A DNA stretch of 64,000 nt from Omphiscola glabra (lineage: Eukaryota > Mollusca > Gastropoda > Lymnaeidae). Positions 21,726 to 44,257 of the stretch are shown one piece after another; position 1 is the stretch's first letter; every line of letters starts with the position of its first letter. A model generated the notes under the pieces. That model searched no databases, was not told the DNA's origin, and saw only the letters and a list, made by a program, of their open reading frames with translations. Where the stretch lies: positions 27,724,618 through 27,788,617 of the forward strand of contig OZ024809.1 of assembly GCA_964017045.1 (NCBI GenBank), in the 5' to 3' direction. The position numbers and the translations under genes were made by a program.

Positions 21726-22318
21726 ACTCCCCCGCTGCAAGCAAGCTGCTTGAAGCCCGCTTGTGTCCCAGACAGTCAACGATCGATTTCTTTATGGCCT
21801 CCGCAGCACGAGTTGTGCAAGTACTCAACTTTCCCATAAATCACACGGCTTGCCATCGCTTAAACAACTTTACGACGGCCATTCTGACTCCCTCCTCCAG
21901 CCCCCCCCTTCCCCCCCCCCCCCCGTGTTCAATGCATAGCCTTTTGCCTCCCCCTCCGCCACCCTCGCTCTTTCATTATCAGCCTCGATCAGTTACTTCT
22001 GTGTCCAGTTTATGACGGCGTTCCTCAAAGCGATCACCTCCTCGCATTTTGAGACCAGCCGAGATCTTTCCGAGGACACCTCGAGTGTTTCCTGGGATAT
22101 TTTCGTTTCATGTTGTTATAAACATGGACGCGGAATCAGATTGGTATTTTTTGAAGACTCGAGGTTTATGACTTGGATTCCACCCCAAGCAATGTCTTAC
22201 GTCATTAAGCTTGTTTGGTTGATTGTTTTTTCTGGAGTGGGGGGGGGGGGGTTAAACATACTGGCCTAAAAGTAGACTCCACCGAAGGAAGCTATTGAGT
22301 AAAAATTTCGTATAGCAT
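21726..22318. other. spacer
   Basis: Contains C-rich runs near 21900-21924 and a G run near 22239-22250. No gene recognised. Confidence 0.45.
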
Positions 22319-22415
22319 ATTATTATTATTATTCGTAGTTCTCAATAGCGTGGTACCCCAGCCCTAGGCTGGGCTGGGCTCACCACGCTGTACATACGAT
22401 TTAACAAAGATAATC
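22319..22415 (-). mobile_element. LINE-B 3' end, 5'-truncated copy
   Basis: The minus strand reads TACAGCGTGGTGAGCCCAGC, then GGCTGGGGTACCACGCTAT, then a (TAA)n tail at 22319-22333. This is the same terminal hairpin and tail as the long LINE-B copy ending at 44109. Only about 100 bp remain. Confidence 0.8.
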
Positions 22416-22554
22416 ATGAACTTATATCCCCCTTTCCCAACTTCTTTGTAGTTATGATGTTAGAATTTTCCCCAAACAACCCCACATCCACACACCCCCC
22501 CCCCCCCCCCCCGCTTGAAAGGTCTGGATTTGATTTACCATATACATTGTCTTA

Positions 22555-31506: not shown

Positions 31507-32075
31507 TTATATTATTATTGTTAAAGTGGTCTTATAAAGAGTGGTACCCCGGTCTTATAAAGCGCGGTACCTCAGACTTATAAATTGCGGTACCCCAGTC
31601 TTATAAATTGCGGTACCCCAGTCTTATAAAGCTTGGTACCCCAGTCTTATAAAGCGCGGTAACCTAGTCTTATAAAGCGTGGTACCACAGTCTTATAAAT
31701 TGTGGTACCCCAGTGTTATAAGTGCGATTTCCCAGTCTTATAAATTGCGGTACCCCAGTCTTATAAAGCGTGGTACCCCAGTCTTATAAAGCGTGGTACA
31801 CCAGTCTTATAAAGTGTGGTACCCAGTCTTATAAAGCGTGATACCCCAGTCTTATAAAGCGTGGTACCCCAGTCTTATAAAGCGTGGTACCCAGTCTTAT
31901 AAAGCGTGGTACCCCAGTCTAATAAAGCGTGGTACCCCAGTCTTATAAAGCGTGGTACCCCAGTCTAGTGCTTGGCTCACCGCACTTGACATTAATAAAC
32001 AGTTGCATAAAATTGTACCCTAGTACTATTGACCCATGTCCAGCCTGGGATGGCAACCAGCAGCATCGAGCGTTG
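31507..32075 (-). mobile_element. LINE-B 3' end with internal minisatellite expansion
   Basis: On the minus strand, CGATGCTGCTGGTTGCCATC near 32050-32075 matches LINE-B 3' sequence at about 43938-43960. GCGGTGAGCCAAGCACTAGA and CTGGGGTACCACGCT (31966-31992) match LINE-B at 44040-44076. The tail AATAATAATATAA (31507-31519) matches the LINE-B (TAA)n end. Between hairpin and tail, the final 23 bp of the element are repeated about 19 times (31527-31966). This is a 5'-truncated LINE-B copy in which the terminal segment expanded. Confidence 0.8.
31527..31966. repeat. 23-bp minisatellite derived from LINE-B, about 19 copies
   Basis: The unit is GCGTGGTACCCCAGTCTTAT plus AAA, with ATTGCGG, GAGTGG and CAGTGTTAT variants. 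Read inverted, the unit corresponds to CTGGGGTACCACGCTATAGA plus AAA at the LINE-B terminus. Confidence 0.95.
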
Positions 32076-33377
32076 TTTATCGGTCAGAAGGGGGGGGGGG
32101 GGGGGGTTGAGAACGAGTCGGAATTGTAGAGTTTAAATAGTATACAATTTTGAGCTTAGTGAAAAGGGCGAAAACTCGGGTGAGGTCTATCATAACTTGA
32201 AATTCTGCTTGGATGTCGGAATTTTTCTGTCTTCACATAACAATAATAGTGTTATTCCAATATCTGAGACGAGGCGTTCTAGGATTGTGGTTGTGTGTTT
32301 CAGATTTAAAAAAAACAACACACACACAAAAACCGTCTCAACTCTGGCTACCTAGACCCACGGGGTTGTTGCTCGTCCATGTAGCCATACTGTCCGTACA
32401 ACCACGAGTCACTTTGGGCACGTGCATTGAACGGGAAATCCCACTAGTATCAACTTCCGGCTTTGGGAGGGGGAAAAATACTTGGAAGGAAAAAAAAAGC
32501 AAATTTTGGGAAACCGTATAAATTTGAGGTTTCGGGTCAGTGGTTCCCATTACTGAAAGCTTTTGTAACCCAAACTACTTAACAACACTGTACACACAAC
32601 TTGATAGTTGTTTGTGAAAACATTTGTTTCAGAAACGCTATTCTTGTAAAAAAAATCACACACACACACAAAAGTCGCAAACACAAACACAACAGACAAA
32701 CAAAACCATCTACTGACTAGTTAAAGATTTAATTGATGCATTAAAACCATGCCACCTCTCTTTTTCCTATAAAAAAATGTGTCTAATTTGGTCATGATCC
32801 CGAAAAATGTGAGATCCACTGTTTTCAAAGTTCTGTTTGAAGACTTGTTTTGGGGTGGGGGGAGGGGGTTGGCTTTCTTGGGGCTTCCGGTTGCGAAGAA
32901 CTTGAAATTTAGACCAAAATGTTGGTGTGTTAGGGAGAGTTGGAACAAGGAGTTAAAGAGGGGACGGGGTGAGGGGGACGATAGGGTGGGGTGAAGGACA
33001 CTGGGGTGACGGACATATCATGATGATCTTATCTCTTTGCTTCTACAAAATAATTTGTTGGGGGGGGGGGTGGGGGGGGGGAGACATCGCCATGTTTTTA
33101 CATCTCATTTATTAGCACCTGACAAATGCCATCCAATCGGAAGATTATCAAGGAAGTTTATCAATGAAGATTATCAAGGATGCTATCAAGTAAGGTACAA
33201 AAACGACCCCAAAACAGCACCAGCAACAGCACCAGCAGCAAACGAAGAACTGTAACAAAAACAATTAAAAGAAGGAAATAAATTTTTAAAAATCCAGGGA
33301 CAAAACTAGTCGCTAGAAAATGAACAGGTTGAATTCTTTTAAAAATCTGCGCTACAACTTGAACGTTATATTTGAAG
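32076..33377. other. spacer
   Basis: Contains G runs at 32090-32106 and 33059-33080 and short CA tracts near 32320 and 32660. Around 32540 CAGTGGTTCCC resembles a hAT end, but no partner was found. No gene recognised. Confidence 0.45.
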
Positions 33378-40865: not shown

Positions 40866-41642
40866 TAAAGAACGACATCCGCCCTAACACCGGCCTATGA
40901 GACAACACCAGACCAGGCCGCCATGACATTATGCAATACCGGCCACCAACTTGTTAGCGAAAACCTGGACGTGAGTCCCGAAGTCGTTTCCGGTAGAGTC
41001 CAAGTGTGTGTGGGGGGGGGGGGGAACCCCAGGTCGATGTGACCCGCGGACGTGCCGAACACGGGAAGGGAGGTAATTTGCAATGTCGTCAAGTTAATTA
41101 TCTGATTATCTCCTCCTGTTGCGTGATTTATTCCCATAAAATCCCCGGTTGATTTCTACATACTTGGGGGGGGGGGGGGGGGGGGGGGAGAGAGGCGCGA
41201 TTGCGCCCAGGCAATAGCCGCACACTGATCACTGCAGCGTTAATTATACGTTTTTAAAAAAAATCTCGCGGAGGGGAATAGAGTTAACTTTTTTTAGGCT
41301 AAGAAAGGGAGACAGTATATATATATCACGTGATCATGTATTGCGATTTAGACAATCTGAGTTTGTTTTTTGGAAGGAAGGAAAGAAACTTAAAGGGGGG
41401 GGGGGCAGGTAGAGAAGGGGAGGGGGGTCATGGAAGGGTAGTGCAAGGAGGACATGGCAGGGGACGAGAAGGGAGGGGAATAGGACGATTGATTTGAAAT
41501 AAGGAAAAGGGGGGGGGGGGTGGGGGAGATGCATACATTAAGTACGGTAAATTTTAACTAGCAGAACTTATTTGATGTTGAGATATTTTGTTTCGCCATT
41601 TTTTTAGTTGTGTATCTGAACAAAAACAATGTCAAGGCGTGT
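40866..41642. other. spacer with G23 run
   Basis: Contains G runs at about 41013-41023, 41166-41188 (23 G, the longest in the window), 41396-41405 and 41510-41520. No gene recognised. Confidence 0.55.
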
Positions 41643-42310
41643 ACAGCACGAGGGTTCTAAATCTCGGGTACACCACGAGAGTTCTAAATCTCGGGTTACA
41701 GCACGAGGGTTCTAACTCACGTGTACACCACGAGGGTTCTAAATCACGTGTACAGCACGAGGGACTAACTCACGTATACACCACGAGAGTTCTAAATCTG
41801 GGGTACACCACGAGGATTCTAAATCACGTGTACACCACGAGGGTTCTAAATCACGTGTACACCAAGAGGGTTCTAAATCTCGGGTACATTACGAGGGCTC
41901 TAAATCTCGTGTACACCCCGAGGGTTCTAAATGTCGTGTACACCACGAGGGTTCTAAATCTGGGGTACACCACGAGGGTTCTAAATCTGGGGTACACCAC
42001 GAGGGTTCTAAATCTGGGGCACACCACGAGGGTTCTAAATCTGGGGTACACCACGAGGGTTCTTAATCTGGGTACACCACGAGGGTTCTAAATCTGGGGT
42101 ACACCACGAGGGTTCTAAATCTGGGGTACACCACGAGGGTTCTAAATCTGGGGTACACCACGAGGGTTCTAAATCTGGGGTACACCACGAGGGTTCTAAA
42201 TCTGGGGTACACCACGAGGGTTATAAATCTGGGGTACACCACGAGGGTTCTAAATCTGGGGTACACCACGAGGGTTCTAAAACTCGTAACACCACGAGGG
42301 TTCTAAAACT
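41643..42310. repeat. 27-bp minisatellite, about 25 copies
   Basis: The unit contains CACCACGAGGGTTCTAAATC and TGGGGTA. Units on the left (41643-41930) vary in sequence and length; the centre and right are nearly uniform, with a short diverged right edge. Confidence 0.96.
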
Positions 42311-42399
42311 CGTGAACACAGCGTTACATGCAAGCATACTGTAACACCATCATTATTTGGGTTGATGGTGATACATTTTACTTGATAACTGGACGTCAT

Positions 42400-44109
42400 G
42401 TTCTTTGGACCCCATCCCCACCCCCCTGTTGGTTGAGTCGTTAGATCATTTGCTCCCAACGATAACCAGCATAGTCAATGAAAGCTTGTCATCGGGCACT
42501 GTTCCATCTATTTGTAAGTCAGCTGTCATCAAACCATTGCTTGAGAGGCCTGGTCTGGATGAAAATAATTTTAAAAACTATAGACCTGTATCTAACTTAT
42601 CATTTTTGTCTAAAGTCCTTGAAAAACTAGTTCTAAAACAACTTTTTGCTTACTTAAATGACAACTCTCTTCTCAGTCCTAATCAATCAGCCTATAGACC
42701 TTTCCATAGCACTGAGACGGCTCTCTTGAAAGTCACCAATGACCTCTTGCTTGCATTGGACAGTGGTGATGTCTCCCTCCTGATCCTCTTGGACCTCAGT
42801 GCGGCCTTTGACACTGTCGACCATGAAACCCTTTACAAAACGCTTGAAAATTACTTTGGCATTTCTGGTTCTGTTTTGTCTTGGTTTAGGTCGTTCCTCT
42901 CCGATAGAACGCAGGCAGTCGCTGTCGATGGCTGTATCTCCAGCAGTGCTGACTTGGTGTATGGAGTGCCACAGGGGTCCGTTTTGGGCCCGGTTCTATT
43001 TACAATGTATACCAGGCCACTGCTCCTCTTGCTCGAGAGGCATGCTGTGGGGAGCCAGTCTTTCGCGGATGATACGCAACTATACAAGCATACCCATCCC
43101 TCTCTTGTAGATTCAGCTGTCCGGACTTTGCAGGAGTGTATTGGTGATGTCAAGTCATGGATGACACTCAGCAAGTTGAAACTTAACGATGACAAAACGG
43201 AAGCACTTCTTATTCATGATCACAAATCATCCTCTAACTCAGCTCTCCCCACCTCATTTCAAGTAGGTAACTCAGACATACAGTTTACATACTCAACTAG
43301 GAATCTTGGTTATATTCTGTCTAACAGCATGTCTCTAGATAAACATATATCTCACATTTGTCGCTCTGCATACACTGCTATCCGTCAGATCAGCTCCATC
43401 CGCCACTACCTCACAGTTAGTGCAACAAAAACCTTAGTCTGTGCTCTTGTTCTCTCTCGTCTTGACTACTGCAACTCTCTTCTGTCAGGCTCACCAAAAC
43501 ACTTCTTAGAAAGATTACAAAAGGTTCAAAACTCAGGTGCTAGGCTAGTTTTAAAGGCAAAAAAAACGTGATCACGTCACACCACTACTTCATTCATTTC
43601 ATTGGCTCCCTGTACAAGCACGGATTGATTATAAACTCTCTGTTCTGTGCCACCACTTTTTCTCGAATTCCTGCCCTTCATATCTAACCGAAATTCTCTC
43701 TGTCTATTCACCCCTTCGACAGCTTCGCTCCTCCGCAGACGATCGTATTCTTTCTGTCCCTAAGACTCGCACAAAAACATACGGTGAAAGATCTTTCTCT
43801 TACTGTGCCCCCAAACAATGGAATTCTCTTCCACTACACATCAGAAATATATCAACCATCACAGCCTTCAAAACTGCACTCAAAACACACCTCTTTAAAC
43901 TTTACTATCCTGACTGATTCCCCCTCTGAAAGTTAAACGATGCTGCTGAGTGCCGTCCATGGCTTCACATGTAAATTGTTATGGAATGGTTGGTTTTTAA
44001 TTTATATTTTTTAAGTTCATTTTAATTTGCATGTACAGCGTGGTGAGCCCAGCCCTAGGCTGGGGTACCACGCTATAGAAAACTACCCATAATAATAATA
44101 ATAATAATA
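42400..44109 (+). mobile_element. LINE-B, 5'-truncated CR1/L2-like retrotransposon
   Basis: A non-LTR element lacking its endonuclease and the start of the polymerase ORF. It contains a reverse transcriptase (42405-43917), a 3' untranslated region, a terminal hairpin (GGTGAGCCCAGCCCTAGG, GCTGGGGTACCACGCTAT) and a (TAA)n tail at about 44089-44109. Hairpin-plus-microsatellite ends fit L2/CR1-type LINEs, which prime on their target by a 3' end signal. Two further copies of this 3' end are at 22319-22415 and 31507-32075. Confidence 0.88.
42405..43917 (+). pseudogene. non-LTR reverse transcriptase, truncated and frameshifted
   Basis: The frame opens at the LDPIPTPLL segment just upstream of the polymerase fingers. 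Motifs in order, numbering from there: NYRPVSNLSFLSKVLEK (about 58-74), LLDLSAAFDTVDH with catalytic Asp (about 128-140), GVPQGSVLGP (about 187-196), FADDTQL with the catalytic Asp pair (about 220-226), and the LSRLDYCNSLL segment of the connection region. A run of eight A at 43559-43566 carries one base too many, giving a stop at 43569-43571. The next frame continues with DHVTPLLHSFHWLPVQARID to KQWNSLPL, ending at TGA 43915-43917. The endonuclease and N-terminal part are absent. It catalysed target-primed reverse transcription in its intact ancestor; this copy is dead. Confidence 0.9.
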
Positions 44110-44257
44110 TCAACTTACTTCATTCTTCTTATTAATTAATCACTACGATGCCTTCAATAACATAAGCCAGATTTAAGTTTGCCATCACCATAATATTTAT
44201 TCACGACTTGACGTATTTTACAATAATAATGAGTCTCCTATAATTGATTGTTTGACT

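Follow-up and report, generated by a model that had tools for sequence, protein, structure and literature searches.

Minisatellites that arise inside transposable elements have been attributed to the slippage model of Haber and Louis, in which a stretch flanked by very short direct repeats undergoes duplication and later expansion, and the cases listed for it include Alu, B1, MaLR and the soybean Gmr9/ogre elements (PMC6947457). For the tandem repeats at the 3' ends of Aedes aegypti SINEs, slippage during retrotransposition has been proposed (Tu, Li and Mao 2004, as cited in PMC3747384, PMC12941198 and PMC3160391). Concatemeric cDNA is produced from a structured RNA by the DRT2 reverse transcriptase (PMC12039810), and end-to-end template jumping has been attributed to R2 (as a reference in PMC2881922).

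The 64,000-nucleotide stretch of the Omphiscola glabra genome analysed here (the window) carries a 23-bp minisatellite made of the 3' end of a LINE. As in the slippage-model cases, part of a dispersed repeat has been duplicated and expanded, perhaps here too from one short direct repeat to the next; the differences are that the source is a LINE 3' hairpin, that many loci and break points are involved and that one form seems to be spreading as a LINE subfamily. The likeness to the Aedes SINE tails, there ascribed to retrotransposition slippage, lies in the tandem repetition of a retroposon 3' end, whereas the units found here, of 19–59 bp, lie in or beside an RNA hairpin rather than in a simple tail, and none was found in the young family with the pattern used. 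Enzymes such as DRT2 and R2 would likewise string together copies of a template delimited by RNA structure, but later DNA amplification accounts for the genomic pattern no less well. Among the titles and abstract openings listed by full-text searches of a library that lacks most subscription papers, none dealt with minisatellites at LINE 3' hairpins. Two features seem to be new: such arrays arose repeatedly at a LINE hairpin, with the full ladder of unit numbers, and one subfamily carries a tandem-hairpin tail.

The array was recovered by TRF with a period of 23, 19.2 copies and 87% matches (Table 1). In LINE sense, that is, read inverted, its unit is TGGGGTACCACGCTTTATAAGAC, and the final unit continues into CACTTTAACAATAATAATAT, the LINE terminus with the (TAA)n tail. 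The order along the minus strand is 3' UTR body, hairpin, array, end of the terminus and (TAA)n tail, and the unit and both flanks of the head-to-tail array belong to one element. The initial annotation had read the array as an amplified LINE 3' end of about 19 units, and its position between a LINE flank and a LINE tail bears this out; the unit does derive from the LINE 3' end, although it is not the last 23 bp before the tail as had been stated, since about nine bases of terminus follow the last unit. The significance of the flanking match on the side of 31966–32075, on which that annotation had made its case depend, was confirmed: the array flank (31956–32095) aligned to the 3' UTR and hairpin of the LINE-B element of the window (43801–44110) with a score of 256, as against a mean of 94.6 (sd 13.3) for dinucleotide shuffles, none of which scored as high in 500 trials. 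The same flank scored higher against a relative elsewhere in the genome (L008, 311 against a shuffle value of 105.6) and lower against another (L005, 192, still above the shuffle maximum of 174), and by BLAST the B2 body of L090 (for B2, see below) matched 32017–32074 with 81% identity over 58 bases.

Table 1. Features of the window and unit types of tandemly repeated LINE ends (L numbers denote loci)
Feature	Position in the window or loci	Strand	Basis
LINE-B-type 3' end, further single-unit copy with (TAA)n tail	22318..22420	-	alignment
LINE tail (ATT/TAA)n with final terminus bases (CACTTTAAC, LINE sense)	31508..31528	-	direct reading
23-bp array, TGGGGTACCACGCTTTATAAGAC x 19.2 in LINE sense	31529..31966	-	TRF and per-unit alignment
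Remaining hairpin and 3' UTR body of truncated LINE-B2-like copy	31967..32085	-	local alignment against shuffles; BLAST
LINE-B reverse transcriptase end, two overlapping frames (42372-43571 and 43555-43917)	42372..43917	+	ORFs, Pfam
LINE-B 3' hairpin, 16 pairs, -29.2 kcal/mol (z -5.28)	44037..44074	+	folding
LINE-B (TAA)n tail, one terminal unit	44089..44109	+	direct reading
Unit of about 19 bp	L089		by eye
Unit of 21 bp	L121		
Unit of 23 bp	window array		
Unit of 23 bp, different stretch	L102		
Unit of 26 bp	L002		
Unit of 38 bp, type A	L008, L069, L075, L080-L082, L087, L088, L099		
Unit of 38 bp, type B	L005, L078, L083, L086, L097, L098, L101, L106, L107 (at 40), L114, L116, L130, L133, L142		
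Unit of 41 bp, type A junction	L074		
Unit of 43 bp, type C	L071-L073, L076, L077		
Unit of 43 bp, type D (5 of its bases missing from type A)	L084, L085 (near-identical loci)		
Unit of 52 bp	L079		
Irregular units	L104, L108 (59)		

In the per-unit alignment, the units on the hairpin side are near identical (0–2 differences), and those of the tail half are more diverged, mostly with 1–4 differences and in one case with seven, a variant with AATT recurring among them. This gradient from hairpin to tail and the recurring variants indicate ordinary minisatellite turnover in the window array. By eye, the break points read CTAGAC|TGGGG in the hairpin and TAAGAC|CACTT in the terminus, so that AGAC stands on both sides of the original unit; at 4 bp it is shorter than the direct repeats of 5–10 bp of the published slippage model (PMC6947457). 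The 23-bp junction is confined to its own locus and is absent from the 146 other loci compared. Tandem arrays make up about 41% of the window (positions 1–64000; 67 merged array loci by TRF, periods 15–70), within which neither a tRNA nor an Rfam match at gathering score was found. Several LINE copies, among them the window copy (32091–32107), L072 and L078, have a G run (C in LINE sense) close to where the 3' UTR begins, its length differing among them.

The LINE-B element (42372–44109) is a non-LTR retrotransposon: upstream of its 3' end, the first frame matches the reverse transcriptase family RVT_1 of Pfam (E 3.1e-29), and the second frame matches no Pfam family. The nearest solved structure is that of LINE-1 ORF2p (E 1.7e-11), and the element may belong to the L2/CR1-type LINE clade. 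The stable predicted stem-loop directly before the short-repeat tail fits the 3' hairpin of LINEs of the stringent type and is a candidate recognition site of the enzyme. The second copy of the window (22319–22420) aligned to LINE-B with a score of 326 against 83.6 for shuffles. With the 160-base 3' end as query, 1571 candidates were obtained; the top 40 were scored, and each was 100% identical over 159 or 160 bases, which marks the family as young. Just upstream of the LINE-B frames lies an array with a period of 27 bp (41641–42319).

The element that carries the array is of an older kind related to LINE-B, called B2, of which the 3' end region was read; its 3' UTR differs from that of LINE-B and its terminus is TATAAGACCACTTTAA. 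The initial annotation had placed ancestor and product side by side in the window, naming the copies at 44040–44109 and 22319–22415 as the unexpanded versions. Single-unit relatives they are, but their termini, TATAGAAAACTACCCA and TATTGAGAACTACGAA respectively, differ from that of the array, TATAAGAC, which rules them out as direct ancestors. Single-unit ends with the array-type terminus were found elsewhere (L090, L092, L093 and others), and the unexpanded counterparts of the array are copies such as these.

The same architecture was found at many genomic sites. Loci were collected by a search with the array sequence and by a pattern of two nearby TGGGGTACC words; the pattern had 2054 matches, a figure that counts unit pairs rather than loci, and its reversed control had 445. 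Among the pattern matches listed (C1 up to 30.4 Mb), eight loci were LINE ends and three were not. Two matches of the array search, L004 and L006, look like unrelated minisatellites and were rejected as LINE-end arrays. The tandemly repeated LINE 3' ends fall into at least ten unit definitions of 19–59 bp (Table 1). Across sites their unit numbers form a ladder, with 1, 2, 3, 4 and 6 units read and 5, 7, 10 and 13 obtained from match offsets. In L002, L088 and L107, no LINE body could be recognised by eye and the array begins at the genomic flank. The second of two units in L076 (TTGTATG...GTGG) departs from the element's own body (TTTTATG...GCGG), as if it came from another element. The pairs L084/L085 and L126/L127, each near identical and on one chromosome, retain the LINE end and are probably segmental duplicates. 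Junction overlaps are mostly 0–3 bases, below the 5–10 of the slippage model (PMC6947457); in at least three loci (L008, L081, L089) the junction script had cut within a unit, and their overlap values were not used.

The frequency of duplication was estimated in copies chosen on the B2 body alone (L090:115–275), for which the best 40 of 858 candidates were scored; the sample comprised 38 loci once the place of the query had been removed, L106 included and the near-identical L126 and L127 treated as one locus. Two or more terminal units were present in seven of them (L106, L114, L116, L121, L130, L133, L142), which excludes the outcome in which LINE copies never carry more than one terminal unit. 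Twenty-nine had a single unit, some with an eroded end, and thus copies of the element exist that lack an array; the last two (L128, L129) lack the hairpin and yet end in a (TAA)n tail. No rate was taken from another sample of 20 loci, in which ten had one unit and ten had several (one of the latter by eye), since it had been drawn with the array as query.

Compared with the LINE body and with the flank, the LINE end stands out as a hot spot of duplication, but it does not clearly do so against the very high background of the window. Within the 161-base body region, repeated matches occurred at two of the 40 places (C14:29969165–29970744 and C13:1732433), and L136 has a duplication immediately before the hairpin. 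With end and body lengths estimated at 55 and 180 bases, seven of ten events fell in the end, about 23% of the length (P 0.002); including a T-rich two-copy repeat found by TRF in the body part of L143, the count became seven of 11 (P 0.005). Downstream of the tail, at the 31 of 38 loci with a script-found tail, there were nine arrays in 10,755 bases, so that six arrays in the LINE ends stood against 1.9 expected (P 0.013, for an assumed 2.28 kb of LINE end). The window itself has 1.76 array loci per kb of non-array sequence, as scored with a limit of 50, which is stricter than the 40 applied elsewhere; set against this density, the excess was not significant (P 0.22). At the C14 place, whose downstream end is in L133, a segment of the B2 3' UTR body is repeated over 1.5 kb, mostly with 42-bp spacing, and further downstream this LINE copy has a two-unit tail.

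One junction, that of the type C unit, recurs at many places. The query was taken from L072 and ran from its LINE-B-like body through the first hairpin unit to base 30 of the second 43-bp unit. Of 1562 candidates, 40 were scored, and all of these, L072 included, span the junction at 93–100%, a proportion that is no rate because the query contains the junction. By match offsets, 12 places have at least two units, 20 have three, two have four and two have five, and 6, 7, 10 and 13 units occur at one place each; L072 would otherwise stand higher than the first class, but its further matches were left out of this count. Where there are three units, the match to the third covers its first 34–37 bases only at 19 of the 20 places, its end being different. 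In L072 itself, 92 complete units were read, and the adjoining body is 96.3% identical to LINE-B (546/567). A matching terminus with a TAA tail was found at C1:5375826–5375880, about 100 units along if the intervening 325 bases continue the L072 array; the search that yielded it gave 886 matches with none for its control, and among the 21 distinct ends whose sequence was listed, all on C1 up to 26.1 Mb, two are array ends from the TGGGGTACC pattern search. From their positions, the 40 places would be independent insertions, the tandem tails probably being inherited through RNA; they seem to be both inherited and locally expanding.

The duplications in B2 are of mixed age. The inter-unit differences, set against the sum expected if units were independent, were 19/22 in L116 (one odd-length unit omitted), 16/24 in L106, 4/7 in L133, 8/30 in L130 and 0/4 in L114, and 38/70 in L097, a locus outside the body-chosen sample. 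Some duplications are thus about as old as the insertion, as in L116, where the units are nearly as different as independent copies, and others are recent. Variants common to the units of L107, and likewise those common to the units of L130, were seen in no other of the 147 loci compared. In the young LINE-B family, the exact terminus followed by GGGGTACC within 30 bases gave no match genome-wide; this single exact pattern is blind to type C duplications, to gaps above 30 bases and to mutated ends, and the denominator, at least 40 intact ends with terminus and tail, is inexact.

Overall, these observations are best explained, and we think probably rightly, by post-insertion DNA amplification of the palindromic LINE end, sometimes captured by a source element. 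A 5'-truncated B2 LINE would insert with one hairpin, the terminus and the (TAA)n tail, after which the stretch from the hairpin to a few bases before the tail would be duplicated by DNA-level slippage or unequal exchange between the two AGAC motifs, 23 bp apart and beside a strong palindrome. Ordinary minisatellite turnover could then bring the array to about 19 units. The same process may have acted at many LINE ends with other break points, and a duplicated end would occasionally have lain in a still-mobilised element and been passed on with its tandem tail, as in the 43-bp subfamily. With 41% of the window in tandem arrays, no LINE-specific mechanism is required, although a LINE-specific step would also explain the excess at the LINE end over body and flank. 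We infer an origin at the DNA level rather than in reverse transcription, and likewise the role of the palindrome; against the DNA-level account stand the units of L116, about as old as the insertion, and type A units that end at the exact border of terminus and tail (L070, L074, L082). An alternative of practically negligible probability is that an unrelated minisatellite merely resembles a LINE end: the great abundance of minisatellites in the genome and the shortness of the unit's match to LINE-B, taken alone, would favour it, but LINE flank and LINE tail stand on either side in the correct order, and the flank alignment far above shuffles and the same architecture at many loci refute it.

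The initial annotation had suggested a start by slippage during target-primed reverse transcription, which the absence of matches in young LINE-B, the mixed unit ages and the tandem background do not support. In its fuller form, the enzyme would copy the 3' hairpin, detach and restart near the terminus, its presumed recognition site, and the units would expand later. We regard this as possible but rather unlikely. It would account for the units of types A, B and D and those of 52, 26 and 23 bp, which start in or beside the hairpin and end at most about ten bases from the tail (exactly at its start in the three type A loci just named), for arrays lacking a recognisable LINE body, for mixed unit lengths within one locus (L086, L077) and for the near insertion age of L116, and tandem cDNA is indeed made by reverse transcriptases such as DRT2 (PMC12039810). 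It accords poorly with the duplication of the LINE body as well (C14:29969165, C13:1732433, L136), with units that lack the terminus (type C, L102, L104 and part of L086), with the high array background and with the lack of terminus-containing duplicates in the young family. A bolder version, in which such stuttering seeds minisatellites at insertion in B2-type and not in B-type elements, and some tandem tails are selected as multiple start sites and become a subfamily with a growing-ladder tail, we consider unlikely. Improbable, too, is that multi-unit source LINEs were ancestral to all arrays, including that of the window, through retrotransposition and later expansion. The 43-bp junction at all 40 scored places (query included), 32 of them with about two or three units, and the type B junction (AAG|TGAGCC) recurring at many loci are what such inheritance would leave, but it is at odds with the ten or more unit definitions, several at one locus, with the 29 single-unit copies among the 38 chosen by body, with the locus-specific variants of L107 and L130 and with the restriction of the 23-bp junction to the window. 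Local DNA amplification with occasional capture remains the reading we prefer.

The birth of a minisatellite is rarely seen with the relatives of its ancestor, the intermediates and the products side by side. In this one genome, the number of units at LINE ends rises from one through two and three to about 100, with differing break points, and a tandem tail has apparently been copied to new sites. The seeding step becomes testable as reverse transcription against DNA slippage, and the finding suggests a route by which a mobile element may spread minisatellites.
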